Source: Desulfovibrio sp.
Lineage (GTDB): Bacteria > Desulfobacterota > Desulfovibrionia > Desulfovibrionales > Desulfovibrionaceae
Direction: 5' to 3'
Assembly: GCA_020217165.1 (NCBI GenBank)
Contig: JAIWOE010000049.1
Span: forward strand, 1 to 10,021
DNA: 10,021 bases
This document shows positions 214 through 10,021 of this stretch, in pieces. A program made the translations under genes and the position numbers. A model generated the notes under the pieces. That model ran no database searches. It was not told the DNA's origin and saw only the letters and a program-made list of their open reading frames with translations. Numbering within the stretch: the first letter of the stretch is position 1; every line of letters begins with the position of its first letter.

Positions 214-498
214 GTCCCTTACCAGTTTCCGAACGTCACCGGCCTGACCGCCACAGAACTGGCGGCCCACCTGGACGTCTCAAAGCCCGTGGTTTCCAAC
301 ACCGTGCAGGCCCTGCTGCGCGAGGGGCTGCTGGAGGCGACCCCCCACGAGCGGGACCAGCGCTCCCGCAGGATCCGGCTCTCATCCGTCGGACTGGCGC
401 GCCTGAATGCCCTGCTTTCCGGGTATTACGACGTACTGCAGGAACACATGCACGGTCAGGCTCAGCAATGCAGCCGCGGGCCGGACACTTCTTCCTGA
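214..498 (+). pseudogene. MarR-type winged-helix regulator remnant
   Basis: The plus-strand translation from about base 214 shows a typical MarR-type winged helix-turn-helix. The recognition region LTATELAAHLDVSKPVVSNT is encoded at about 244-303, followed by VQALLREGLLE and the wing with DQRSRRIRLSSVGLARL. Intact MarR proteins are usually about 140-170 residues, with helices before and after the wing that form the dimer. Here the N-terminal dimerisation helix is missing, and upstream in frame there is no ATG or GTG with a ribosome site close by; a TTG at 166 is the only near candidate. The C-terminus also loses family character after YYDVLQEH and stops at 496-498 (TGA). The last 37 bases overlap the 3' end of the CheA-like gene on the other strand. 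The most likely reading is a degraded fragment. A short functional protein starting at TTG 166, or a frameshift in the upstream part, cannot be excluded. Confidence 0.5.
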
Positions 499-1583
499 AG
501 CGCATCCACATCCAGCACAAAGCCGATGTCTCCGCCCGTCAACAGGACACAGCCGCCCAGGGACGGATGCCAGGCGCAGCAGGGTGCCAGAGGTGACACG
601 GCCCCGCGGTAGCGACCGCGCACGGCGGCCACGCCCAAGGCCAGACGCGTTCCCGAGGCGGTATTCAGGATCACCGCCTGCGGCGGGGTCTTGTTCTCCA
701 GGGTCTGCCAGGCGCGGCCGTCCAGCAAGCTGGCCAGGTCCAGGAAGGGAATGGTTCCTCGATCGCAAGAGAGCACCGCATGCTGCTGCAGCATGGTGAG
801 ATCCGCGGCCCGCAGGGGCTGGAGAGCGGCAATGACCCCCATGGGCACCACGATGCGATGCGCCCCAGCCTGGAAGACCACCCCATCCAGGAACTGAAAG
901 GCCAATGGGATGCTGCACACGGCCACGGTGCCCCCATTTTGGCCGGGCTTGAGGCAGAAGGAGCCGTGCAGGGCGGCCATGGCCTCTTCGATGCGCCCAA
1001 GACCGGCACGGGGGGCAGAGGCGCCGTCTTGGCAGGTGTCCGCACCATGGCCGTCGTCACGCACTTCCACGCGTACGGCACCGTTTTGGCAACTGGCCAG
1101 CACCTCCAACCTACCCTTGGCCGGCTTGCCAGCGGCCAGCCGCTGGGCGGGGGGCTCCAGGCCGTGCTCCACGGCGCGGCGCACCAGGAGGGCCAGGGGG
1201 TCTTCCAGGGCCTCCAGCACGGCCACGTCCACGGCCAGATCCGCGCCTTCCATGTGCAGGTCCAGCTCCTTGCCGCAGCGGCGGGCCATGTCCATGGACA
1301 GGGCCTTCATCTGCCGAAACAGCTTGTTGAAGGTGGCGGCGCGGATGGCCAGGGTGATGTCCTTGAGGCGTTCCAGCAGGGCGTCCTGCTCGTTCAATGG
1401 ACGGGCCAGGGCCTGGGCCTGGCGCTGCATGGAACAGCCCTCGCCGGCCAGCCGCAGCTGCTGGTGATTGGAAAGCAGGTCCTGCAGCACATGCAGCAGG
1501 GAATCGCCCAGGGTGCGCGCCACCTTGAGATCGGCCTGCTGGCGCTCGGCAATGGTCCCTTCTTTTTGTGTATCATAGAGCAT
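462..1583 (-). CDS. CheA-like pseudokinase with CheW-like domain, no Hpt domain
   Basis: This 373-residue protein aligns by eye with the core and C-terminal parts of CheA chemotaxis histidine kinases. After a helical N-terminus (1-75) there is a dimerisation-like stretch (about 76-120, FNKLFRQMKALSMDMARRCG, then HMEGADLAVD). A GHKL ATPase domain follows: EALEDPLALLVRRAVEHGLE (125-144), AGKPAKG (151-157), and a G1 box DDGHGAD (176-182). A CheW-like domain spans about 228-365 and ends in LTGGDIGFVLDVDAL. Key residues are changed. The N-box Asn of CheA (HLVRNAxDHG) is Arg136, the F box is absent, and the G2 motif GRGVGMDVV is reduced to RAGLGRIEE. There is no phospho-accepting Hpt domain. It is therefore probably not an active kinase and may act as a scaffold or nucleotide sensor. 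The ATG at 1583 is chosen over a TTG at 1589 because GGGAG lies 7 bases upstream. It is the last gene of the run, 24 bases after the siaD-like gene. A link to the Sia switch is inferred from position only. Confidence 0.8.
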   Translation of the reverse strand: MLYDTQKEGTIAERQQADLKVARTLGDSLLHVLQDLLSNHQQLRLAGEGCSMQRQAQALARPLNEQDALLERLKDITLAIRAATFNKLFRQMKALSMDMARRCGKELDLHMEGADLAVDVAVLEALEDPLALLVRRAVEHGLEPPAQRLAAGKPAKGRLEVLASCQNGAVRVEVRDDGHGADTCQDGASAPRAGLGRIEEAMAALHGSFCLKPGQNGGTVAVCSIPLAFQFLDGVVFQAGAHRIVVPMGVIAALQPLRAADLTMLQQHAVLSCDRGTIPFLDLASLLDGRAWQTLENKTPPQAVILNTASGTRLALGVAAVRGRYRGAVSPLAPCCAWHPSLGGCVLLTGGDIGFVLDVDALQEEVSGPRLHC

Positions 1584-1590
1584 GGTCAAG

Positions 1591-1595
1591 CTCCC
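1591..1595 (-). promoter_or_regulatory. Ribosome binding site of the CheA-like gene
   Basis: GGGAG on the minus strand, 7 bases before the ATG at 1583-1581. It supports the ATG over the in-frame TTG at 1589, which lies only one base from the site. Confidence 0.6.
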
Positions 1596-1607
1596 GCGGC
1601 TGTCATG

Positions 1608-2345
1608 TCAGGGTGCATGCACCGCCACCTGGTTGCGGCCGGCAGCCTTGGCCATGTACAGGGCCTCGTCCGCCGCTTTGATGAGCCGGTCCACGGTGTC
1701 CACGCGGCCGCCGATGGTGGCCACGCCGATACTCACCGTGTACCCGATGCGATGTCCCTGCACCGCCACCGGGCACTGGGCCATGTTGCTGCGTAACCGG
1801 TCCGCCACGCCAACGGATTCTTGCAGATCCGCATCCGGTAGCAACGCGGCGAACTCTTCGCCCCCCAGGCGCGCAAACAGATCCTCCGCCCTCAGGGAGG
1901 CCTTGCCCATCACGGCAATGCTCTTGAGGACGAGATCCCCTGCATCGTGGCCATAGGTATCGTTGATGCGTTTGAAATGATCGGCATCCACCAGAAACAG
2001 GGACAACGGCGCGGCCTGGCGGGAGGCCCGGGAAAGGGCCTGGTGCGCGGCCTCCATGAATGCCCTGCGGTTGGCCAGCCCGGTGAGCATGTCCGTGGCG
2101 GCCAACCGCAGCAACTCCTCCTGCTTACGCTCCAGCGCCTCATTCAAGGTGGCGAGCTTTTGCTGCATGCGGTCGCCCATTTTCACCAGCCGCATGCTTT
2201 GCCGGAAGAGCTTCTCGTACTCCCCGAGGAGAAAGACGAACTCGTCGCGCATGCAGCAGTCTTCGTGGTCGGCCCGCTCCAGGTAGGTTCGACACCGCGC
2301 GATGACCCGTTCCTCCTCATGGAAGCCGAGGGCGAAGGCATTCAT
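1608..2345 (-). CDS. siaD: SiaD-like diguanylate cyclase (GGEEF, I-site intact)
   Basis: This 245-residue cytoplasmic protein makes c-di-GMP from two GTP. Residues 1-83 are helical with no sensor domain, probably a stalk or coiled coil (EYEKLFRQSMRLVKMGDRMQ, LNEALERKQEELLRL). The GGDEF domain begins at DMLTGLANRR (85-94). The active site GGEEF is at 161-165. RAED (152-155) lies five residues before it, matching the RxxD product-inhibition site, so both catalysis and feedback inhibition look intact. Length and layout match SiaD of Pseudomonas aeruginosa, where SiaC binds the N-terminal stalk and promotes active dimers. The ATG at 2345 is chosen because it follows the siaC stop by only 2 bases; a longer frame to 2417 would run back into siaC. 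A GGAG lies about 10 bases upstream, inside siaC. Cyclase identity is near certain; the SiaD role rests on its place after siaB and siaC. Confidence 0.93.
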   Translation of the reverse strand: MNAFALGFHEEERVIARCRTYLERADHEDCCMRDEFVFLLGEYEKLFRQSMRLVKMGDRMQQKLATLNEALERKQEELLRLAATDMLTGLANRRAFMEAAHQALSRASRQAAPLSLFLVDADHFKRINDTYGHDAGDLVLKSIAVMGKASLRAEDLFARLGGEEFAALLPDADLQESVGVADRLRSNMAQCPVAVQGHRIGYTVSIGVATIGGRVDTVDRLIKAADEALYMAKAAGRNQVAVHAP

Positions 2346-2347
2346 AG

Positions 2348-2734
2348 TTATGCGTCTCCGTACGATTGCAACTCGAAACGCAGGAATTGGGTTTCTTCCT
2401 TGAATTCTTCTCCGCATTCCTGCGCGATTTCATTTTCCTCGTGATACCGCCACACCACTTGCACCTGGCGGCCGCCTGCGGCGGCTTCTTCCAGCATGTC
2501 GAGCAGATTCATGAGGATCTTGGAACTGGAGCTGTTAAAGTACACAATGTCCATGGTCAGGTGCAGCGGTGTTGTTTCCGTCTCCAGAAACTCCCGTATC
2601 CACTGCAACACCGGTTCATAGAACTTGACGGCATGTTCCGGATACGACTCCCCGCGGATGGATAAGGCGCCCTCCGCAACACGGAAGTCAATGGCCGGGC
2701 TGGATTTGGTGGCCTTGATGATCAGGTCCTGCAT
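2348..2734 (-). CDS. siaC: SiaC-like phospho-switch protein (DUF1987)
   Basis: This 128-residue protein closely fits the SiaC/DUF1987 family, whose members are about 125 residues. The family pattern is clear: SSPAIDF near the N-terminus, LSIRGESYPEH (24-34), FYEPVLQWIREFL (38-50), then LTMDIVYFNSSSSK (59-72) and LLDMLEEAAAGGRQVQVVWRY. In Pseudomonas aeruginosa, SiaC is phosphorylated on Thr68 by SiaB and dephosphorylated by SiaA, and the unphosphorylated form binds and activates the cyclase SiaD. Here the matching position is Ser68 in YFNSSSSK, so phosphorylation on serine is expected; Ser69-71 are alternatives. The start at 2734 follows the siaB stop by 4 bases and has GGTGGGG 7 bases upstream. 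Its place between siaB and siaD is the family's usual order. Confidence 0.93.
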   Translation of the reverse strand: MQDLIIKATKSSPAIDFRVAEGALSIRGESYPEHAVKFYEPVLQWIREFLETETTPLHLTMDIVYFNSSSSKILMNLLDMLEEAAAGGRQVQVVWRYHEENEIAQECGEEFKEETQFLRFELQSYGDA

Positions 2735-2738
2735 GGAT

Positions 2739-3335
2739 TTACCCCACCGCCTTCACGGAAAAAAAAGACAACCCTTCGGCGATGTCTGCAATGCAGTAAT
2801 CCAGGGGCCGGCTTGCCTTGCGGGCCATTTCCAGAAAACCCAGGCCCGCGCCCTTGCTGTCTTCCGACGTGGGTTCCTGGCGGCGCATTTCCTTGTACAG
2901 GGCCTTGAGCTCCTCCCTGGACATGGTGCGCATGGAGTCCAGGCGCTCGGCCAGCATGCGGCCCTTTTCCTGCTGGATGTAGTTGCCGCACAACACAAAG
3001 AATCGCCGGTCCGCCTCGCGCTCCCGACCCACCACCACCACACCATGGCGCATCTCCTCCACCCCGCGCTGTTCCCGCGGGGGCATGGTTTCCGCCGAGT
3101 AGTGCAATATATTCTGCATCTGCTCGATGAAGATGGCGAAGATGTTCCGCGTCACGGTCATGCCGGCTTCTTCCACGGCCATGCGTTGCTTGAGCAGATC
3201 CCCGATGCCTTCCACCAGGGACTGGCTGGTGGGCCCGCTGTAGCAAAAGAGGATGCCTTCGCGTTTCAAGGATTCATAAAACTCGTGCAGATCCTGCAGC
3301 ACGGCGGGAAACGTTGCAATGCACGTCTGATTCAT
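2739..3335 (-). CDS. siaB: SiaB-like GHKL-fold kinase of SiaC
   Basis: This 198-residue cytoplasmic protein matches the SiaB (DUF6272) family. Visible family features are FYESLKREGILFCYSGPTSQ (19-38), then LVEGIGDLLKQRM (40-52). An N-box-like helix FIEQMQNILHYS (69-80) carries Glu71 and Asn75. A glycine motif KGAGLGFLEMARKA (161-174) resembles the ATP lid of GHKL kinases. In Pseudomonas aeruginosa, SiaB uses ATP to phosphorylate SiaC and so switches SiaD off. The frame stays open upstream to 3821, but that part lies inside feoB in another frame and has no family content. The ATG at 3335 is chosen because GGAG lies 6 bases before it and because the SiaB match begins just after it. It lies 14 bases after the feoB stop. 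Unlike the known sia order, feoB sits between this gene and the phosphatase gene. Confidence 0.88.
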   Translation of the reverse strand: MNQTCIATFPAVLQDLHEFYESLKREGILFCYSGPTSQSLVEGIGDLLKQRMAVEEAGMTVTRNIFAIFIEQMQNILHYSAETMPPREQRGVEEMRHGVVVVGREREADRRFFVLCGNYIQQEKGRMLAERLDSMRTMSREELKALYKEMRRQEPTSEDSKGAGLGFLEMARKASRPLDYCIADIAEGLSFFSVKAVG

Positions 3336-3341
3336 TCCTGA

Positions 3342-3345
3342 CTCC
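3342..3345 (-). promoter_or_regulatory. Ribosome binding site of the SiaB-like gene
   Basis: GGAG on the minus strand, 6 bases before the ATG at 3335-3333, in the 14-base gap after the feoB stop. It fixes the start and rules out the longer open frame reaching 3821. Confidence 0.65.
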
Positions 3346-3349
3346 ACAT

Positions 3350-5917
3350 TTAACGAGATTGTGGGACAATGCGTTGATGGCGCAGGGAGTCGCCAATGGC
3401 CTCCACCGGCGAACGGCTGGCAAACAGTCCCAGGCCCAGGGCAATGCAAAGCATGAGCACATAAAACACCTGCATCATGGCAAACCCGGTCACGCCTAGG
3501 GCAGTGCCCAGGGTAAAGATGGCGCTGGCCACCACAATGCCCACGGCCGAGGGGAACAGGATGGCAAAGAGCATCCATTTGTACGAGCCCGTCTGCACCT
3601 TGACCATGATGGTGGCTGCAAAACACGGCGGATACAGGGCAAAGAACACGATGAGGGCCAGGGCGTGCAGGGGAGTCATGCCGGATTCGGCGCTCTGGGC
3701 GCCCATGCGGGCCTCCAGGGTGCCGCCTTCGTCCGCCCCCTGCTGGAAGAGCACCCCCAGGGTGGCCACGCTGGATTCCCGGGCCGCGAAGGAACTGATG
3801 AGGGCAATGTTGATTTTCCAATTGAACCCGGCAAACTGCGTCACCGGCTCCAGGGCCCGGCCCAGGCGGCCGAAGAAGGAGTTCTCGATGCGCTGGTCCT
3901 TGATAGCCCGTTGCGTTTCCTTGCGTGTGTTCATCAGCTGCGCCACGGCCGTGCCCACGATGCGCTCCCCCGGCTCCTTTTTGCCCGGCTTAAGGAAGCT
4001 GAAAAAGATCGGGTGCTGCCGTTCGTAATCGGCCATCACCTTGTCCATGCCACTGCCGGCGTTAAGCCGGGCAGCGGTGAAACGGTTAGAAAAATTCATG
4101 AGTTCAAGCACGTTCTGCCTTTCTGCCAACATGGGGGCAAATTCCGTCTCCCGCACAGCCTGCTGGAAGGTGTCGTAGGCCTGCTCCATGGTCTGCTCGT
4201 GAGTGGCCATCACCGCATCAGGCAGGTTGGGGAACTGCAGCAGGGCAAACACGCAGACACTCACGGCCAGCACGATGGTGCCCACTTTCTGGATGTACTC
4301 CCAGGTACGTTGCAGGGTTCGCGTGGCCACGCCGCGCACCGTGGGCAGGTGGTAGGTGGGCATTTCCATCACAAAGGGCGCGCTTTCCCTGGAGCGCAGG
4401 ATGGTATGCGTGAGAATCCAGGCGATGATGAGGGCCATGAGGATGGTGACCGTGGAAATGAAGAACAGGGCGTAGCTTTTCTCTCCGGGAAAGAAGATGT
4501 TCACCAGCAGGGTGTACAGGGGCACCTTGGCCAGGCAGTTCATATACGGCACGGTGAGGATGGTGGCCATGCGGGACCGCTCGTCGGGAATGCCCTTGGT
4601 GGCCATGATGCCCGGCACCGAGCAGCCCCCGGCAAAGACCCCGCCCAGGATGAAAGGCAAGGTGCTCTGCCCGTGCAGGCCGAACCGCTGGAAGATGCGG
4701 TCCAGAATGAAGGCGATGCGCGCCATGTAGCCCGAATCTTCCAGCATGGCGATGAGGGCGAACAGGATGAAAAAGATGGGCAGGTAATTGAGCAGGGTGT
4801 TGGCGCTGTCCACGCACCAGAGCACCAGGGAACGCAACAGGCCGTCTTCCACCAGGCCCGGGATGGGCAGCAGGTCGCCCACAATGCCCCGCAGGGAGGC
4901 GAGATACGGCCAGGTGTACTTGGTCAGCTCATATCCCTGTACGATGGAGACCTGATAAATGCAGTACACCGTGAGCACCAGGAACACCGGAGCCAGGATG
5001 CGATTGAGCAGCACGCGGTCGATGCGTTCCGAAAGCGTGGTTTTGCGTCCCGCCGGCCGGTTGATGCATTGCTGCACGATCTCCTGGGCTCGGGCGTGGC
5101 GGCAGGCGAGGATGTGATCCGCAATGGACAGCTGCGCCGCCTGCTCGAACATGGTGGCGGCCTGCTCCACCTGGTGCAGGATGGCCTCGGCATCCGGATG
5201 ATTCTCCCGCACCAGGTCGCGCACCATTTCATCCTGTTCCAGAAGCTTCACGGCCATCCAGCGCAGGGGGTAGGCGGCATCCAGCCGGGAATTCTGCCGC
5301 AGGGCCTGCTCCAGGACCATCACCGTCTCTTCCAGCGGACCGTACTCCAGGGGATTCCTCGTCCGTGTCTGTCCGTGCACGCCAGCCCGGGAGACCGCAT
5401 CCATCAGCTCCTTGCGGCCCACATTCTTGCGGCCCACCAGGGGCACGACCGGCACCTCCAGGATGGAGATGAGCTGATCTACATCGATGTACATGCCGTG
5501 GGCCTTGGCCACATCCATCATGTTCAGGCCCAGCACCATGGGGCGGTTCAGCTCCAGCAGCTGCAGGGTAAGCATGAGACTGCGGGACAGGTTGGACGCA
5601 TCCACAATGTTGGCGATGCAGTCCGGCTTGTCCTGCAGTAAAAAATCCCTGGCCACCCGTTCTTCCAGGGAAAAGGACGTGAGGCTGTACGTGCCCGGCA
5701 GGTCCACCACCTCCACGCGCATTTCGCCATCCCGGTACCGGCCGGACTTCTTTTCCACGGTCACGCCGGGATAGTTGGCCACATACTGGCTGGCGCCGGT
5801 GAGCATGTTGAACACCGTGGATTTGCCGGCATTCTGCTGCCCTGCCAGGGCCACCAGCAGATAGTTCTTCACGGCGTGTCCTGCGGTGGACGCCGCATCG
5901 TCAATTCTGGAATTCAT
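3350..5917 (-). CDS. feoB: FeoB ferrous iron transporter with a long extra insertion
   Basis: This 855-residue inner-membrane protein imports Fe2+. The N-terminal G domain shows G1 GQQNAGKST (26-34), G2 YPGVTVE (49-55), G3 DLPGTYSL (72-79) and G4 NMMD (132-135). A helical linker follows to about 300. The membrane part has the two FeoB core repeats: GGCSVPGIMATK (430-441) with Cys432, PYMNCLAKVPLY with Cys461, AARESSVATLGVLF (711-724), and FALYPPCFAATIMVKVQTGS (759-778) with Cys765. Oddities are a soluble, charged segment at about 566-680 between membrane helices, where typical FeoB has a short linker, and a G1 loop with Gln-Gln where Pro-Asn is usual. FeoA is not fused and is not seen in the window. 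The ATG at 5917 overlaps the stop of the upstream phosphatase gene as ATGA, with GGGAGAGG just upstream, so translation is probably coupled. FeoB is usually 700-800 residues; the insertion explains the extra length. Placement inside the sia cluster suggests shared control. Confidence 0.95.
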   Translation of the reverse strand: MNSRIDDAASTAGHAVKNYLLVALAGQQNAGKSTVFNMLTGASQYVANYPGVTVEKKSGRYRDGEMRVEVVDLPGTYSLTSFSLEERVARDFLLQDKPDCIANIVDASNLSRSLMLTLQLLELNRPMVLGLNMMDVAKAHGMYIDVDQLISILEVPVVPLVGRKNVGRKELMDAVSRAGVHGQTRTRNPLEYGPLEETVMVLEQALRQNSRLDAAYPLRWMAVKLLEQDEMVRDLVRENHPDAEAILHQVEQAATMFEQAAQLSIADHILACRHARAQEIVQQCINRPAGRKTTLSERIDRVLLNRILAPVFLVLTVYCIYQVSIVQGYELTKYTWPYLASLRGIVGDLLPIPGLVEDGLLRSLVLWCVDSANTLLNYLPIFFILFALIAMLEDSGYMARIAFILDRIFQRFGLHGQSTLPFILGGVFAGGCSVPGIMATKGIPDERSRMATILTVPYMNCLAKVPLYTLLVNIFFPGEKSYALFFISTVTILMALIIAWILTHTILRSRESAPFVMEMPTYHLPTVRGVATRTLQRTWEYIQKVGTIVLAVSVCVFALLQFPNLPDAVMATHEQTMEQAYDTFQQAVRETEFAPMLAERQNVLELMNFSNRFTAARLNAGSGMDKVMADYERQHPIFFSFLKPGKKEPGERIVGTAVAQLMNTRKETQRAIKDQRIENSFFGRLGRALEPVTQFAGFNWKINIALISSFAARESSVATLGVLFQQGADEGGTLEARMGAQSAESGMTPLHALALIVFFALYPPCFAATIMVKVQTGSYKWMLFAILFPSAVGIVVASAIFTLGTALGVTGFAMMQVFYVLMLCIALGLGLFASRSPVEAIGDSLRHQRIVPQSR

Positions 5918-7152
5918 GCCCTCTCCCTTCTGACACGTCCGGGGGCAAAGCCCAGGACAGTGACATCGTCGCGCCGCACCTGAACGCCCCGATGTGTTTC
6001 AAAGAGCTCCCACAGGCCAGTCTGCAACGCCTTGAACGGGTGCTCGCCATGATTGAACGAATCGCCATGTGCCGATAATTCGGTAATCAGTTTGAGGAAA
6101 CGTTTTTTGCCAAAAGGCAATCGCTTCTCCCCGCCAACCTGATCGAATAATCCATCCGTGGCCAGGTGCACCCCGGCCACGCCGTCCAGGGACACGCACT
6201 GTTCAGCGTACGTATGCTCCAGGGGCGTTTCGCGGTAGCCAATGCCCATTTTTTCCGCCTTGAGTTCCACCGGTTCGCCATCCCGCACCAGGAACGCGCT
6301 GATGCCTGCCCCGGCAAAACACAATGTTTCTGCAGCATTGGGCATCCAGCACAACCCCATTTCCAGGCCGTCATTGGAACGCTTGCTCAAGGCGGTTTCG
6401 GTGCCGTCCTGGCCCAGGAAGGTCTTGAGCCGGCGATTGAGGGAGGCCAACACCAGGCCCGGCCGGCCCTCCACACTGGCGCTGTCCATGGCGTCCAGCA
6501 TGCTGTGAACAATGAGGGTGATGAACGCCCCAGGCACTCCGTGGCCGGTGCAATCGAACACCCCCACGAACACGCCCCCCGGGGTGCGGCGCAGCCAGTA
6601 GGAGTCACCCCCCACTACCTCGCGCGGCTTCCACAGGATGTAGCCGTCGGCCACGTAGTCCCGCAGGCGCTGGGCCGGTGCCTGCATCTGATGCTGAATG
6701 GCGCTGGCGTATTCGATGCTGTCCATCACCTGGCGCTGGGCCTCCTCCAGTTCCGACAACATGCCGGCGATGCGGTGTTCGCGGTCCAGCAGGGAGCGGC
6801 CCATCCAGTACATGTTCCGCTTGAGGCGGATGAAGTCGTTCTCCCCGCCCTTTTCCGGCGGCAGGGACAACTCCTGCAACCCCTTGCCTTCCTGCAGGCT
6901 GCGGCAGAAGTTATTGCACAGGGTGATGTTGCGCAGGGCCAGGATCTCTTCCAGAAACTTGCTCACGGGGATGCACAGGAGAACCCACGCCGCCAGGTAC
7001 ATCACCAGGCCGGCGGTGACCGATTCCACCGGGGAGGTTTCCAACTGCACCAATACCACCAGAGCAGGAATGAATACGCTTATCAATACCAGGGTGCGGA
7101 CCTGCATGCGGATGCCCAGGTCAGACAGCCAATCTAATATGTTACGCCACAT
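5914..7152 (-). CDS. siaA: SiaA-like membrane PP2C phosphatase lacking the periplasmic sensor
   Basis: This 412-residue protein has two membrane helices (about 21-37 and 45-63) joined by only about eight residues. A cytoplasmic linker and helix follow (ELEEAQRQVMDSIEYASAIQ, 134-153), leading into a SpoIIE/PP2C phosphatase domain. Metal-site motifs are present: REVVGGDSYW (177-186), VFDCTGHGVPGAF (198-210), ATDGLFDQ (331-338) and RRDDVTVLGF (393-402). In Pseudomonas aeruginosa, SiaA removes phosphate from SiaC and so activates SiaD. That protein is longer (over 600 residues) and carries a large periplasmic sensor domain that is absent here, so the input signal must differ. The ATG at 7152 has GGGAGGGA 9 bases upstream and lies 3 bases after the ATPase stop. 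The 3' end overlaps feoB by four bases. Phosphatase identity is firm. The SiaA assignment rests on siaB, siaC and siaD downstream; it could be another SpoIIE-type phosphatase. Confidence 0.87.
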   Translation of the reverse strand: MWRNILDWLSDLGIRMQVRTLVLISVFIPALVVLVQLETSPVESVTAGLVMYLAAWVLLCIPVSKFLEEILALRNITLCNNFCRSLQEGKGLQELSLPPEKGGENDFIRLKRNMYWMGRSLLDREHRIAGMLSELEEAQRQVMDSIEYASAIQHQMQAPAQRLRDYVADGYILWKPREVVGGDSYWLRRTPGGVFVGVFDCTGHGVPGAFITLIVHSMLDAMDSASVEGRPGLVLASLNRRLKTFLGQDGTETALSKRSNDGLEMGLCWMPNAAETLCFAGAGISAFLVRDGEPVELKAEKMGIGYRETPLEHTYAEQCVSLDGVAGVHLATDGLFDQVGGEKRLPFGKKRFLKLITELSAHGDSFNHGEHPFKALQTGLWELFETHRGVQVRRDDVTVLGFAPGRVRRERA

Positions 7153-7155
7153 ACA

Positions 7156-9357
7156 CTACCGTCCCTCCCGGGTAGTTGCTGGGGGTGCTTCGCTCCCCAG
7201 GGATGCGCCTGGCTTGCCAGAGTGGCCAGAGTGGCCAGATTTGCTGCCGGCAGGCAGGCTTGGCGCCCGCATGTTCCGCGCCGCGGCCCACCCCAGCATG
7301 CCCAGGGTGAACCCGTTGTGCAGGGTGGCCCACAGGGCAGGCGCACCGCGACCGGCCGCCGCCAGGGCCAGGATGGCGCCATTGACCCCCACCGCGCCCC
7401 AGAAGGCCTGCTGCACGGACTGCTCCAGCCGCAGGGCAATGGCCCGCGCCGCGGCCAGGCTGTGGATGTCCTCGTGCAGCAGTAACACCTGGGCCGTTTC
7501 CCGCGCCAGATCCGCCCCTTTGGGCATGCACACACCCACCTTGGCCAGCATCATGGCCGGGGTGTCGTTGAGGCCGTCGCCCACGTAAGCGATGGTCCGG
7601 CCGGCATCCACCAGTTCCTGGACCATGGCGGCCTTTTCCTCGGGCTTGAGCTCGGCGTGGGCCGCATCCAGTTCCGGTAGTTCCCGCAACAGGTTGTTTG
7701 CGGTCTGCAGATGGTCCCCCGTGAGCACCACCATGCGGTCAATACCCATCTTGCGCAGCTGGCGCAGGGTTTCCCGCGCTTCGGGGCGGATGGCGTCGGC
7801 CAGACCCACCACGCCGGCCAGCTGGCCATCCAGGGCCACGTACAGCACGGTGTTGCCCTGAGCCCGCAATGATTCCGCCTTGTGTTCCAGCAGGGAGGCG
7901 TCCACATGCTCATCTTCTACGATGAAGTGCCGGCTGCCCACTAGGACGCGCCGCCCTTCCACCAGGGCGGAGACCCCATGGGCCACGACGAATTCCACCT
8001 GCGGCGTGGCTGGGATCTCCACACCACGGCGATTGGCCTCGGCCACCACGGCTCGGGCCACGGGGTGCCCGTAATGGGCTTCCGCCGCCGCCGCCAGGGC
8101 CAGCAGCCCGTTCTCGTCCAGGCCGCTCTGGGCAGAGGCTGCAATGCTGGTCACGGCCAGTTCCCCGCTGGTGAGGGTGCCGGTCTTGTCGAAGACCAGC
8201 GTGTCCACCGATGCAACATCTTCCAATGCCTGCGCACCCTTGAAAATGACGCCGGCATGCCCAGCCGCATACATGCTGCTGCGCACGGCCACGGGGCTGG
8301 CCAGCTTGATGGCGCAGGAAAAATCCACAGTGAGCACCGAGGCGGCGCGACGGATATCCCGCGTTATCAGCCACATGAGCACGCCGATGCCAAAGGTGAT
8401 GGGCACCAGCCGATCGGCCAGTTTGGCCCGGTTCTCCTGCGTGGCGGACTTGGCCCGCAGGGACTGCTGCAGGAACCGGTTGATGCGGGCCAGGCGTGTG
8501 CCCTCGCCCACCTCTTCCGCCGCGATGACCAGCTTGCCCTCCTCTACCACCGCGCCGGAAAGGGCCATGGTGCCGGGCCTGTAATGGGCAGGCGCCGCCT
8601 CCCCGCTGATGGAGCTGGTGTTCACCGAGGCCTCGCCCTCTACCACCTCCCCGTCCACGGGAATGAGTTCGCCGGGACCGCAGACCACACGGTCGCCCTT
8701 TTCAATGTCCCCCACGGGCAGCTGCACCTCGGCGCCATCGCGCAGCACCCAGGCGTATTCCGCCTGCGGCCGCATGAGGGTGGCCAGCAGATCCGTGGTG
8801 GAATTTTCCAGCCGCCCTTCCAGGTATTCCACCAGGGAGAGCACCGTCACCACCAGGGAGCTGGTGAGGTAATCCCCGCGCAGGAGGGAGGCGGTCACCA
8901 CGGCGCCATCCAGCACCTTCACCCGCACGCCTTCGGTGAACAGGGTATGGATACCCTCCGCAATCACCGGTGCGCCCAGCACCCAGGAGACCACGGCCCG
9001 CATGGACCGCGGCAGCACCAGGTTCAGGGCCAGGGCCGCGCCGCGGACGGCCACGGGGTAGAAGGAGGGGGTGACCGGCGGCACAAACCCGGAGCGGAAC
9101 GCCTCCGCGGGGAGGCGTTCCAGAAGCTCCAGGGCTGTGGCCTTGGCCTCGTCCCCATCATGTTCCAGCACCACGCACTGCGCCTTGCGGTTGATGCGGC
9201 AACGCTGTACCCCGGGCACGGCCTGCAGGCGAGCCTGCAGGTATTCCGTATCCAGATCCGGATCGAGAAACATCGGCCCTTGCCAACGAACCCGGCCGGG
9301 GATTTCGTGGACCACCCGCAGGCGGTCCTGCTGCCCAAAGGGCATGCTGCTGGACAT
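7156..9357 (-). CDS. P1B-type metal ATPase with SCA motif (P1B-6, FezB-like)
   Basis: This 733-residue heavy-metal P-type ATPase has an N-terminal HMA-like domain (about 12-85, IPGRVRW and LQAVPGVQRCRIN) without a CxxC metal site. Membrane helices lie at about 100-180. The actuator motif is SGEAAP (251-256) instead of the common TGE. The transmembrane 4 motif is SCAIKLASP (347-355) instead of CPC(x)6P. Catalytic motifs are intact: DKTGTLT with phospho-Asp390, GHP (430-432), TGD (546-548) and GDGLNDTP (593-600). The SC(x)6P motif fits the P1B-6 group, which includes FezB of ferrosome-forming bacteria, where it is thought to load iron into a membrane compartment. The last 35 residues form a Gly/Ser/Pro tail with a GHSGHSG repeat that could bind metal. 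The ATG at 9357 has AGGA 10 bases upstream. The two small upstream genes are 7 bases away or overlap each other. ATPase identity is near certain; the substrate (iron or another metal) is inferred. Confidence 0.95.
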   Translation of the reverse strand: MSSSMPFGQQDRLRVVHEIPGRVRWQGPMFLDPDLDTEYLQARLQAVPGVQRCRINRKAQCVVLEHDGDEAKATALELLERLPAEAFRSGFVPPVTPSFYPVAVRGAALALNLVLPRSMRAVVSWVLGAPVIAEGIHTLFTEGVRVKVLDGAVVTASLLRGDYLTSSLVVTVLSLVEYLEGRLENSTTDLLATLMRPQAEYAWVLRDGAEVQLPVGDIEKGDRVVCGPGELIPVDGEVVEGEASVNTSSISGEAAPAHYRPGTMALSGAVVEEGKLVIAAEEVGEGTRLARINRFLQQSLRAKSATQENRAKLADRLVPITFGIGVLMWLITRDIRRAASVLTVDFSCAIKLASPVAVRSSMYAAGHAGVIFKGAQALEDVASVDTLVFDKTGTLTSGELAVTSIAASAQSGLDENGLLALAAAAEAHYGHPVARAVVAEANRRGVEIPATPQVEFVVAHGVSALVEGRRVLVGSRHFIVEDEHVDASLLEHKAESLRAQGNTVLYVALDGQLAGVVGLADAIRPEARETLRQLRKMGIDRMVVLTGDHLQTANNLLRELPELDAAHAELKPEEKAAMVQELVDAGRTIAYVGDGLNDTPAMMLAKVGVCMPKGADLARETAQVLLLHEDIHSLAAARAIALRLEQSVQQAFWGAVGVNGAILALAAAGRGAPALWATLHNGFTLGMLGWAAARNMRAPSLPAGSKSGHSGHSGKPGASLGSEAPPATTREGR
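7217..7239 (-). repeat. Short 9-base tandem repeat in the ATPase 3' end
   Basis: CCAGAGTGG (plus strand) occurs twice in a row at 7217-7225 and 7226-7234, with a partial third copy. On the coding strand it encodes the Ser-Gly-His repeats at residues 707-712 of the ATPase tail. Confidence 0.8.
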
Positions 9358-9364
9358 GACGGGC

Positions 9365-9601
9365 TTATCCTTTACGGTTGGGTGAGGGATACAGGGAATG
9401 GTGCCAGAGGGAGAATCCCACCAGCGCCACCCCGGCCACCAGATGCAGCCGTTTGGACGTCTTGCCGCCGATAAAACCCGTGGCCACCAGGGCGGCCAGG
9501 GATACGGTCATGCCGTGCTTGGCCAGGGCCTTGGCATCAAGACCAGCGCCGCTGCGGCCGCAGCGGCCAGGCACGCCGGGCAGCAACTCGCCATTAGCCA
9601 T
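9365..9601 (-). CDS. Small His-containing membrane hairpin protein, unknown family
   Basis: This 78-residue protein was not matched to a family. Residues 1-28 are hydrophilic and glycine-rich. Two hydrophobic helices follow, about 31-46 (MTVSLAALVATGFIGG) and 53-66 (HLVAGVALVGFSLW), joined by a short basic turn KTSKR. Histidines flank the helices (His29, His53, His67, His68), so haem or metal binding is possible but not shown. The ATG at 9601 lies inside the stop region of the upstream gene (8-base overlap), and only a weak GAG-rich site precedes it, so translation may be coupled. The stop lies 7 bases before the ATPase start, within that gene's leader. Its position suggests a partner of the ATPase. 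Ferrosome loci also carry small membrane proteins (FezA, FezC) near the P1B-6 ATPase, but I cannot show homology. The start could instead be Met31 (ATG at 9511). Confidence 0.7.
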   Translation of the reverse strand: MANGELLPGVPGRCGRSGAGLDAKALAKHGMTVSLAALVATGFIGGKTSKRLHLVAGVALVGFSLWHHSLYPSPNRKG

Positions 9602-9977
9602 TGCGCTGGCTCATCTCGGCTTTGACGTCTTCCACCTTCTCCTTGATCTCCTCGATGGAGCCCTGCACGGCCGTCCAGAGCTTCACCGCGCCCTTCACCA
9701 GGGCCTGCTGCACGGTGGGGTTGGTCAGCACCAGGGCCACGGCCGCGCCCACGGCCAGGCCGCCCAGGTAGTGCTTGTCCGTGACGTTGAACCAGCTGCC
9801 CAGCCCGTCGGGAGATGTGCACATGCTGGGTGTGGGCGTGGCGGCCGGCTGGTACTGCGCCTGGGCATATTGTGGGGCGTACTGGGGGGCGTACTGGGGG
9901 GTCTGGTGAGCCGCATAGGGCTGCTGCGGCGCACCCTGCTGCGAAACATACGGATAATACGAGGAATGATGGCTCAT
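9594..9977 (-). CDS. Small protein with PQYA repeat head and one membrane helix
   Basis: This 127-residue protein has three parts. Residues 1-58 are low complexity, rich in Pro, Gln, Tyr and Ala, with three PQYA copies at 27-38 and likely disordered. Residues 70-86 (YLGGLAVGAAVALVLTN) are a glycine-containing hydrophobic helix. Residues 87-122 are amphipathic and charged (IEEIKEKVEDVKAEM), probably coiled coil. The layout resembles small YtxH- or DUF5132-like membrane proteins, but I do not recognise a specific family. The ATG at 9977 has GGGAG 5 bases upstream and lies 12 bases after the stop of a further upstream gene. The 3' end overlaps the next gene by 8 bases. Given its neighbours it may help build or decorate a membrane compartment or assist the ATPase; this is inference from position. 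Confidence 0.8.
   Translation of the reverse strand: MSHHSSYYPYVSQQGAPQQPYAAHQTPQYAPQYAPQYAQAQYQPAATPTPSMCTSPDGLGSWFNVTDKHYLGGLAVGAAVALVLTNPTVQQALVKGAVKLWTAVQGSIEEIKEKVEDVKAEMSQRNG
9864..9899 (-). repeat. 12-base in-frame tandem repeat encoding PQYA
   Basis: Three near-identical 12-base units (plus-strand core GGGGGCGTACTG) encode three PQYA copies at residues 27-38 of the 127-residue protein. In-frame repeats of this kind can gain or lose copies by slippage without breaking the frame. Confidence 0.8.
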
Positions 9978-9989
9978 GATGGCTCCCGC

Positions 9990-10021
9990 CTACTGTTTGA
10001 CGACCTTGCCGCCCTTGGCCT
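9990..10021 (-). CDS. 3' end of an upstream gene in the same run (partial)
   Basis: The minus strand from the right edge reads in frame as AKGGKVVKQ followed by a TAG stop at 9992-9990, 12 bases before the start of the 127-residue protein gene. The close spacing, same strand and Lys/Gly-rich tail fit the C-terminus of another small protein of this operon. Only about ten codons are inside the window, so the frame is not certain and no family can be named. Confidence 0.4.
   Translation of the reverse strand, partial: AKGGKVVKQ

Follow-up and report, generated by a model that had tools for sequence, protein, structure and literature searches.

The window analysed here is a 10,021-base stretch of DNA from Desulfovibrio sp. 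(Desulfovibrionaceae; assembly GCA_020217165.1, contig JAIWOE010000049.1), in which nine genes on the minus strand bring together a P1B heavy-metal ATPase, the Fe(II) importer FeoB and a SiaABCD-type switch for cyclic diguanylate (c-di-GMP). As judged from sequence comparison, our firm finding is that the membrane sensor of SiaA belongs to an iron-linked, Fur-associated c-di-GMP sensor family, common to SiaA proteins and single-chain diguanylate cyclases and ranging over the Desulfovibrionaceae and a few related families, with the window operon as the most compact form seen. Further, we consider it fairly probable that the window covers the downstream portion of an operon for iron import and storage that is controlled by Fur and carries a c-di-GMP switch of its own; the sensor of this switch would read a membrane partner. 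This proposal draws on gene order, family membership, catalytic residues, double Fur boxes in three relatives and the sharing of the sensor. The first-pass annotation of the window had already suggested that c-di-GMP signalling and iron are controlled as one unit; the exchanged SiaA sensor, the occurrence of the same sensor on diguanylate cyclases (many of them beside feoB), a FezC-like small protein and the probable control by Fur go beyond it.

SiaA (5914..7152) consists of a two-transmembrane sensor module (6739..7152) and a PP2C/SpoIIE phosphatase domain (5953..6582). Hydropathy, the sole basis of the topology, places helices at residues 20-38 and 45-63 with a loop of about six residues and gives the module no periplasmic domain; two helices with hardly any loop leave no room for a periplasmic ligand-binding domain. 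SiaA of Pseudomonas aeruginosa, in contrast, has 663 residues with a long N-terminal part, compared with 412 here, and the classical sensor part appears to have been swapped for the two-helix module. The module spans the first 138 residues, and a 19-row alignment (A1) shows no variation at P62, G89, L110 and R124 and hardly any at C83 and W116. Cys83 (window:6904-6906) follows the second helix, is absent in L065, L082 and genus g10, and is a possible redox or metal site. Although the module is HAMP-like by eye, we dropped a HAMP identity for it, as Pfam gave HAMP_N3 in only one of 19 members (E 0.11).

In four genomes that gave no SiaC match (G010, G051, G116 and G148), the same module occurs on single-chain diguanylate cyclases adjoining feoB (E 6e-13 to 1e-14). 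Searches recovered it from 53 of 149 family genomes, from 68 of 199 at the level of the order and from 5 of 247 at that of the phylum, in samples that overlap and each include the source genome. One of the 57 family matches (G068, E 1e-6) was left out, and the 56 modules counted carry a PP2C domain in 24 cases and a GGDEF domain in 30, with two unassigned (one truncated at a contig end). On a tree of 82 modules (134 columns; a quick method, with many forks open), a single change separates the GGDEF and PP2C effectors (SH-aLRT 95), and the PP2C group adjoins a nine-member GGDEF group (fork support 90) in which L127, L079 and L080 lie near a long feoB and L128, L132, L134, L136, L137 and L140 do not. 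The simplest reading would be one exchange between a module-cyclase and a module-phosphatase, with the c-di-GMP output kept; because the tree is unrooted, we assign no direction to it. Linkage to feoB requires at least 11 changes (gains or losses) on the same tree. L012 and L099 are the same record with identical modules, and both were counted here and in the SiaC set described below.

The iron linkage of the module is evident from its neighbourhood. Within the family, feoB lies within 13 kb of 33 of the 56 module genes, in 15 of 19 genera, and accompanies both effectors (PP2C, 17/24; GGDEF, 16/30); most fetched spans reach 6-10 kb to each side, and absence of feoB refers to that reach and to the feoB matches listed. 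Eleven further family genomes with the module stand outside these counts, and in five of the six that were fetched (L146-L151) feoB is within the span. Outside the family, four of 17 module genes are near feoB. The 41 places in the family that encode SiaC differ in the same respect, as feoB is close to 17 of the 24 with the module and, among the matches listed, to none of the 17 without it (Fisher p 2.5e-6, kinship ignored). Not all of these controls are complete sia loci, because a PP2C gene is missing from the span in four of the 16 fetched module-free SiaC loci. A wider set of 30 SiaC loci, drawn from several phyla, includes five with the module (L002, L008, L012, L019 and L025), of which three have feoB and one has fez-type genes in the fetched span; the fetched spans of the other 25, several of them short, contain neither feoB nor a P1B ATPase, a 27-bit GTPase-like match in L007 having been set aside. 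We rejected an exclusive pairing of the module with FeoB, given the many module genes without feoB nearby.

Evidence for Fur control comes from relatives, as the window is truncated before the operon head. The Desulfovibrio Fur signal has been described as two partly overlapping boxes with a 6 bp shift, and the regulon predicted in 2004 places feoAB, gdp (for a GGDEF protein) and a gene whose product has P-type ATPase domains under such double boxes (PMC545781). Some of the loci studied here are alike in these respects, whereas no sia genes, shared sensor module or common operon are described in the relevant passages of that study (PMC545781). Scanning with its delta-proteobacterial consensus, after an earlier scan with a TGATAAT-type consensus, we found double boxes in the congener G015 (L062 18223/18229), where they lie some 100 bases ahead of the start of the corresponding operon's first gene. 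Those in G031 (L063 3565/3571) and G089 (L064 3453/3459) precede genes for a 102-104 aa protein and a DUF4198 protein upstream of siaA. Altogether, 87 loci contain 30 double boxes, compared with 0.2 in first-order shuffles, and for 18 of these the start side of a sia, module or fez-type gene is no more than 115 bases away. Double boxes were found at 11 of 24 module-sia loci, seven of 30 module-GGDEF loci of the family and none of 17 loci outside it; module-free SiaC loci had none in 16, in spans of 10-12 kb versus up to 20 kb for the others and at a mean GC content of 0.609 versus 0.592. Of 49 module-GGDEF loci, 18 carry a single Fur box (at least 13 of 16 matches) no more than 400 bases upstream of the module, compared with 3.7% of random windows. 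All six genomes of genus g38 (L100-L103, L130 and L131) show one Fur-like site, matching at 12 of 14 positions, about 1.1-1.3 kb upstream of the module of the GGDEF protein.

The window is an entire contig (C173) of a fragmented genome (340 contigs, 87% complete), and the 5′ end of its operon is therefore missing. All nine genes recur in identical order in G015, a near-complete genome of the same genus (two contigs, 99% complete; locus L062), which argues against an assembly chimera. In G015, three further genes precede them, with gaps of at most 39 bases, and encode g0, a repeat protein rich in Y, Q and P, and a small protein resembling HMA_2 (match below the Pfam cut-off); the last residues of G015 g0 equal those of the gene cut off by the window's end. 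From this comparison, the full operon would number 12 genes over 11 kb, the greater part of which the window covers. Repeats rich in Y, Q, P and A (YAPQ, YMYQAP) are seen both in the N-terminal part of g1 (window:9850-9960) and in the G015 repeat protein (L062:16758-17759). In two further genomes (G031 and G089), siaA-feoB-siaB-siaC-siaD occurs without an adjoining ATPase block, so that feoB stands between siaA and siaB in four genomes; in the window and G015, siaA and feoB overlap by four bases. The idea of one unit for c-di-GMP and iron is supported in part, by feoB near 17 of 24 module-sia loci and by the Fur boxes of three relatives; the complete nine-gene set was seen only in the window's genus, in two of 149 family genomes.

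The gene layout given by the first-pass annotation was confirmed exactly, with nine genes running from 9977 down to 462 and junctions of 12, -8, 7, 3, -4, 14, 4, 2 and 24 bases from the g0 fragment through the CheA-like gene. Its assignments of FeoB and of an ATPase with the SC(x)6P motif likewise hold in our analysis, in which families were assigned with Pfam and NCBIfam models. FeoB (3350..5917) is of the long form (855 aa), scores 467.5 against the TIGR00437 cut-off of 316, and has the G, Gate and FeoB_C domains. Long FeoB proteins of relatives are accompanied by proteins of 102-105 aa and of the DUF4198 family (L063:3666-4851, L064:3557-4755, L066:4913-6199 and L069:14198-15433), possible components of the importer. 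Between sia and feoB, genus g5 has genes for a MoxR-like ATPase and a DUF2201 protein (L069:6454-8748), or the latter alone (L067:9253-10776); a MoxR-like/CoxE-like operon of D. desulfuricans G20 is listed in the 2004 Fur study (PMC545781).

The claim of a full SiaABCD switch stands as to protein families and catalytic residues, although the sensor part of SiaA has been exchanged and all four proteins score below the NCBI equivalog cut-offs of the Pseudomonas proteins (SiaA 170/700, SiaB 130/225, SiaC 129/150 and SiaD 179.5/290). With 412 aa, two transmembrane helices joined by a short loop and this score, SiaA is best described as an SiaA-type protein of short form rather than an equivalog; its PP2C domain retains the metal-binding Asp motifs, the aspartates being invariant in 14 of 14 aligned proteins. 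SiaB (2739..3335; DUF6272, NF038262 193 vs 85) aligns FIEQMQN with YIEMTQN of 6kko_A, so placing its predicted catalytic Glu at E61 of P. aeruginosa, and this Glu is present at the aligned column in 29 of 29 copies. SiaC (2348..2734; PF09345 149 vs 24.5) aligns with P. aeruginosa SiaC across the acceptor site (YFNSSSSK), where N67 and S69 are retained and the acceptor Thr68 is replaced by Ser, the predicted phospho-acceptor here; YFNSS[ST]SK is found in 31 of 31 SiaC copies of module-bearing loci, the window included. SiaD (1608..2345; GGDEF 156.5 vs 23.8) retains the active site GGEEF, with RAED upstream, and GG[DE]EF is kept in the cyclases listed. The model match spans its residues 32-240, and the SiaC-binding stalk of P. 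aeruginosa SiaD, searched alone, gave no match. In P. aeruginosa (PDB 6k4e, 6k4f, 6kko and 7e6g), a PP2C phosphatase, a SiaB kinase, the SiaC phospho-switch and a GGDEF cyclase with the same catalytic residues work together: SiaB phosphorylates SiaC, SiaA dephosphorylates it, unphosphorylated SiaC activates SiaD, and SiaD promotes biofilm (PMC7647112, PMC8457831). Unlike that system, the operon described here also holds feoB, ATPase and CheA-like genes. The relevant passages of another study report siaD as raised under iron restriction combined with E. faecalis, a rise from iron restriction alone going unreported there (PMC13192264).

The ninth gene (462..1583, with an ATG start; a TTG at 1589 is possible) had been called CheA-like, and this agrees with its CheA model matches and CheW domain (34 vs 23.5), less so with a degenerate ATPase region that matches only weakly and with Pfam and NCBIfam scans that gave no phosphotransfer-domain (HPt) match. 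The N-box Asn is Arg in the window and Asn in G015. A MarR-type helix-turn-helix reading frame on the plus strand (window:7-498), whose model start is unmatched, overlaps this gene at its end and is perhaps a remnant; among four genes scanned downstream of the operon in G015, none matched MarR.

The upstream part of the window's gene run encodes what resembles a ferrosome (fez) block. The ATPase (7156..9357) scores 445.5 against the TIGR01525 cut-off of 346 for heavy-metal P-type ATPases, has an N-terminal HMA_2-like stretch under the Pfam cut-off, and carries in its fourth transmembrane helix FSCAIKLASP, that is, the SC(x)6P motif, which we take to mark the P1B-6 or FezB-type subgroup. Upstream of it, g2 (9365..9601) encodes a 78 aa membrane protein in which each of two His is kept by at least 90% of the 21 members aligned; six of seven scanned family members gave weak DUF4405 matches below the Pfam cut-off (best 6.4e-4), the window copy reaching E 2.4. 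Ferrosome FezC is itself a haem protein of DUF4405-like type, for which a dimer has been modelled (PMC11334425), and the two His and these weak matches therefore lead us to call g2 FezC-like, with reserve. The 127 aa product of g1 (9594..9977), with a Y/Q/P-rich N-terminus and a hydrophobic stretch, matched no Pfam family above cut-off; its homologues adjoin P1B genes in fez-like clusters, and it stands, perhaps, in place of FezA, which is a guess. The g0 fragment (9990..10021) is the 3′ end of a small membrane-protein gene truncated by the contig end, with the terminal AKGGKVVKQ-stop of G015 g0 (L062:16344-16753). An SC(x)6P P1B ATPase and, with the same reserve, a small FezC-like membrane protein are shared with the fez clusters of Desulfovibrio magneticus and Clostridioides difficile, and Fur is reported for the latter (PMC11334425, PMC12574912); membrane-bound iron granules would be a prediction here. 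The present operon differs in that sia and feoB are part of it and in that the congener has, upstream, a second ATPase of CPC type, a small HMA-like protein and the small g0 and g1 proteins.

Fez-type genes, feoB and the module occur together within 20 kb in 13 loci of eight genera and two families, in the sia form in the window, L062, L065, L071, L072 and L073, and in the GGDEF form in L076, L077, L116, L127, L129, L149 and L150. A FezB-type ATPase scoring above 590 bits is encoded in 26 family genomes; only 10 of them also have SiaC, and the two lie within 10 kb of each other in five. Second P1B copies that have S (Q in L119) rather than P after CPC(x)6 are found above the G015 operon (L062:18319-19998) and in L065, L071-L073, L076-L078, L081 and L116-L121. 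A small HMA_2-like protein is encoded near them, and in several clusters there is a third copy, whose motif is VC(x)6P or AC(x)6P. Two module-free SiaC genes (L154 and L156) have a P1B ATPase 3-4 kb away.

From these elements, a mechanism can be proposed in which the operon would encode a ferrosome-type iron store (the FezB-like ATPase, the FezC-like cytochrome and their companions), the Fe(II) importer FeoB and a c-di-GMP switch. Upon iron shortage, Fur would release the operon, and importer, store and switch would be made together, for which we infer a single transcript and ferrosome formation. The two-helix module of SiaA would read an intramembrane signal, for which the state of a partner protein in the membrane, FeoB for instance, is the likeliest source; the PP2C domain of SiaA would then remove the phosphate of SiaC, SiaB would restore it, and free SiaC would activate SiaD to produce c-di-GMP. 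The direction and output of the response are likewise conjectural, and iron import and storage would thereby be tied to a change in behaviour such as attachment or aggregation. BceS, a histidine kinase without a dedicated sensing domain, has been proposed to read the cycling of its co-encoded transporter (PMC10314905). By this analogy, and given that feoB sits between siaA and siaB with a four-base overlap, FeoB would be the first candidate partner. The output here would be SiaC dephosphorylation or a cyclase, as opposed to the histidine kinase of Bce-type modules (PMC10314905), and the partner complex is hypothetical. A more specific version, in which FeoB acts as a transporter-receptor whose state, read by the module, sets c-di-GMP that in turn gates iron storage in ferrosomes, we regard as unlikely.

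Several observations weigh against a single iron and c-di-GMP operon with a partner-reading sensor. Within the spans fetched, 23 of the 56 family module genes have no feoB nearby, as is true of 13 of the 17 from outside the family. Of five feoB-unlinked module loci whose neighbours were inspected, the module-GGDEF locus of genus g10 (L105) adjoins ftsA/ftsZ-like genes and L132 adjoins genes whose starts resemble a TonB receptor system (both by eye); genus g21 has sia with the module and no feoB nearby. Double boxes mark only 11 of the 24 module-sia and seven of the 30 family module-GGDEF loci, and none of the 17 outside the family. In G031 and G089, siaA comes after the gene for the 102-104 aa protein and the DUF4198 gene, and the 244 and about 155 bases that part it from its upstream neighbour make a single transcript uncertain. 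We found nothing to show that c-di-GMP acts on iron proteins. Finally, the ATPase and sia are on different contigs in five of the 10 genomes with both (G014, G031, G046, G054 and G096), although the sia contig of G014 ends in other fez-type genes (L065). The first-pass annotation had named separate metal and sia blocks in relatives as evidence against its idea, and for the ATPase block this is half the case. Accordingly, we view feoB and sia as the firm pair and the ATPase block as a frequent but looser third partner.

Some of these points would follow if the regulon were merely bundled, that is, if sia were an iron-starvation-induced behavioural switch moved into an iron operon for co-expression, with SiaA having no physical link to FeoB or the ATPase and sensing something else, such as membrane state or redox via Cys83. 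Double Fur boxes head module-sia operons even without feoB nearby (L091, L093 and L099) as well as feoB-unlinked single-chain module-GGDEF genes (L086, on a 9.7-kb contig, L110 and L112), and many module genes are not near feoB, all of which bundling would accommodate. It explains less readily why feoB is inserted between siaA and siaB in four genomes, with the genes overlapping in two, and why feoB linkage changed repeatedly on the module tree; we hold this explanation to be possible but rather doubtful. A switch reporting on another divalent metal (Ni, Co or Mn), handled by importer and ATPases alike, could be suspected from the DUF4198 protein that accompanies the long FeoB of relatives, a family that occurs with Ni/Co uptake systems, and from the further P1B types, one of them CPC, in their clusters; the Fur boxes, and the Fur and FeoA-like genes of relatives, make it very improbable. 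As for a chance or neutral gene order, a one-genus operon fusion without functional meaning would fit the restriction of the exact nine-gene order to two of 149 genomes. We disfavour it strongly, considering the recurrent proximity in different orders across 15 of the 19 genera with the module, the recurrence in another family with fez-type genes and GGDEF replacing sia (L127 and L129), and the lack of feoB near any of the 17 module-free SiaC places among the matches listed.

The first-pass annotation knew of no described system with this combination, and among the matches listed from the open-licence literature we found no paper joining ferrosomes or FeoB with SiaABCD. A link between iron and c-di-GMP is, however, not wholly unprecedented, because the 2004 study placed a GGDEF protein in the predicted Fur regulon (PMC545781).

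To our knowledge, neither the signals to which the Sia switch responds nor the inputs of many diguanylate cyclases are known; iron is what genomic context, Fur sites and the shared sensor point to in the present case. Our comparisons suggest that c-di-GMP production is part of the iron-starvation response of this group. If the FeoB reading is true, a metal transporter would be connected to a second messenger through flux sensing, and this route would exist in two interchangeable forms, a phospho-switch or a direct cyclase, in the Desulfovibrionaceae and some relatives. Sulphate reducers of this group act in metal corrosion and iron cycling as biofilms, and a built-in coupling of c-di-GMP to the iron state could account for the timing of their attachment to iron surfaces.

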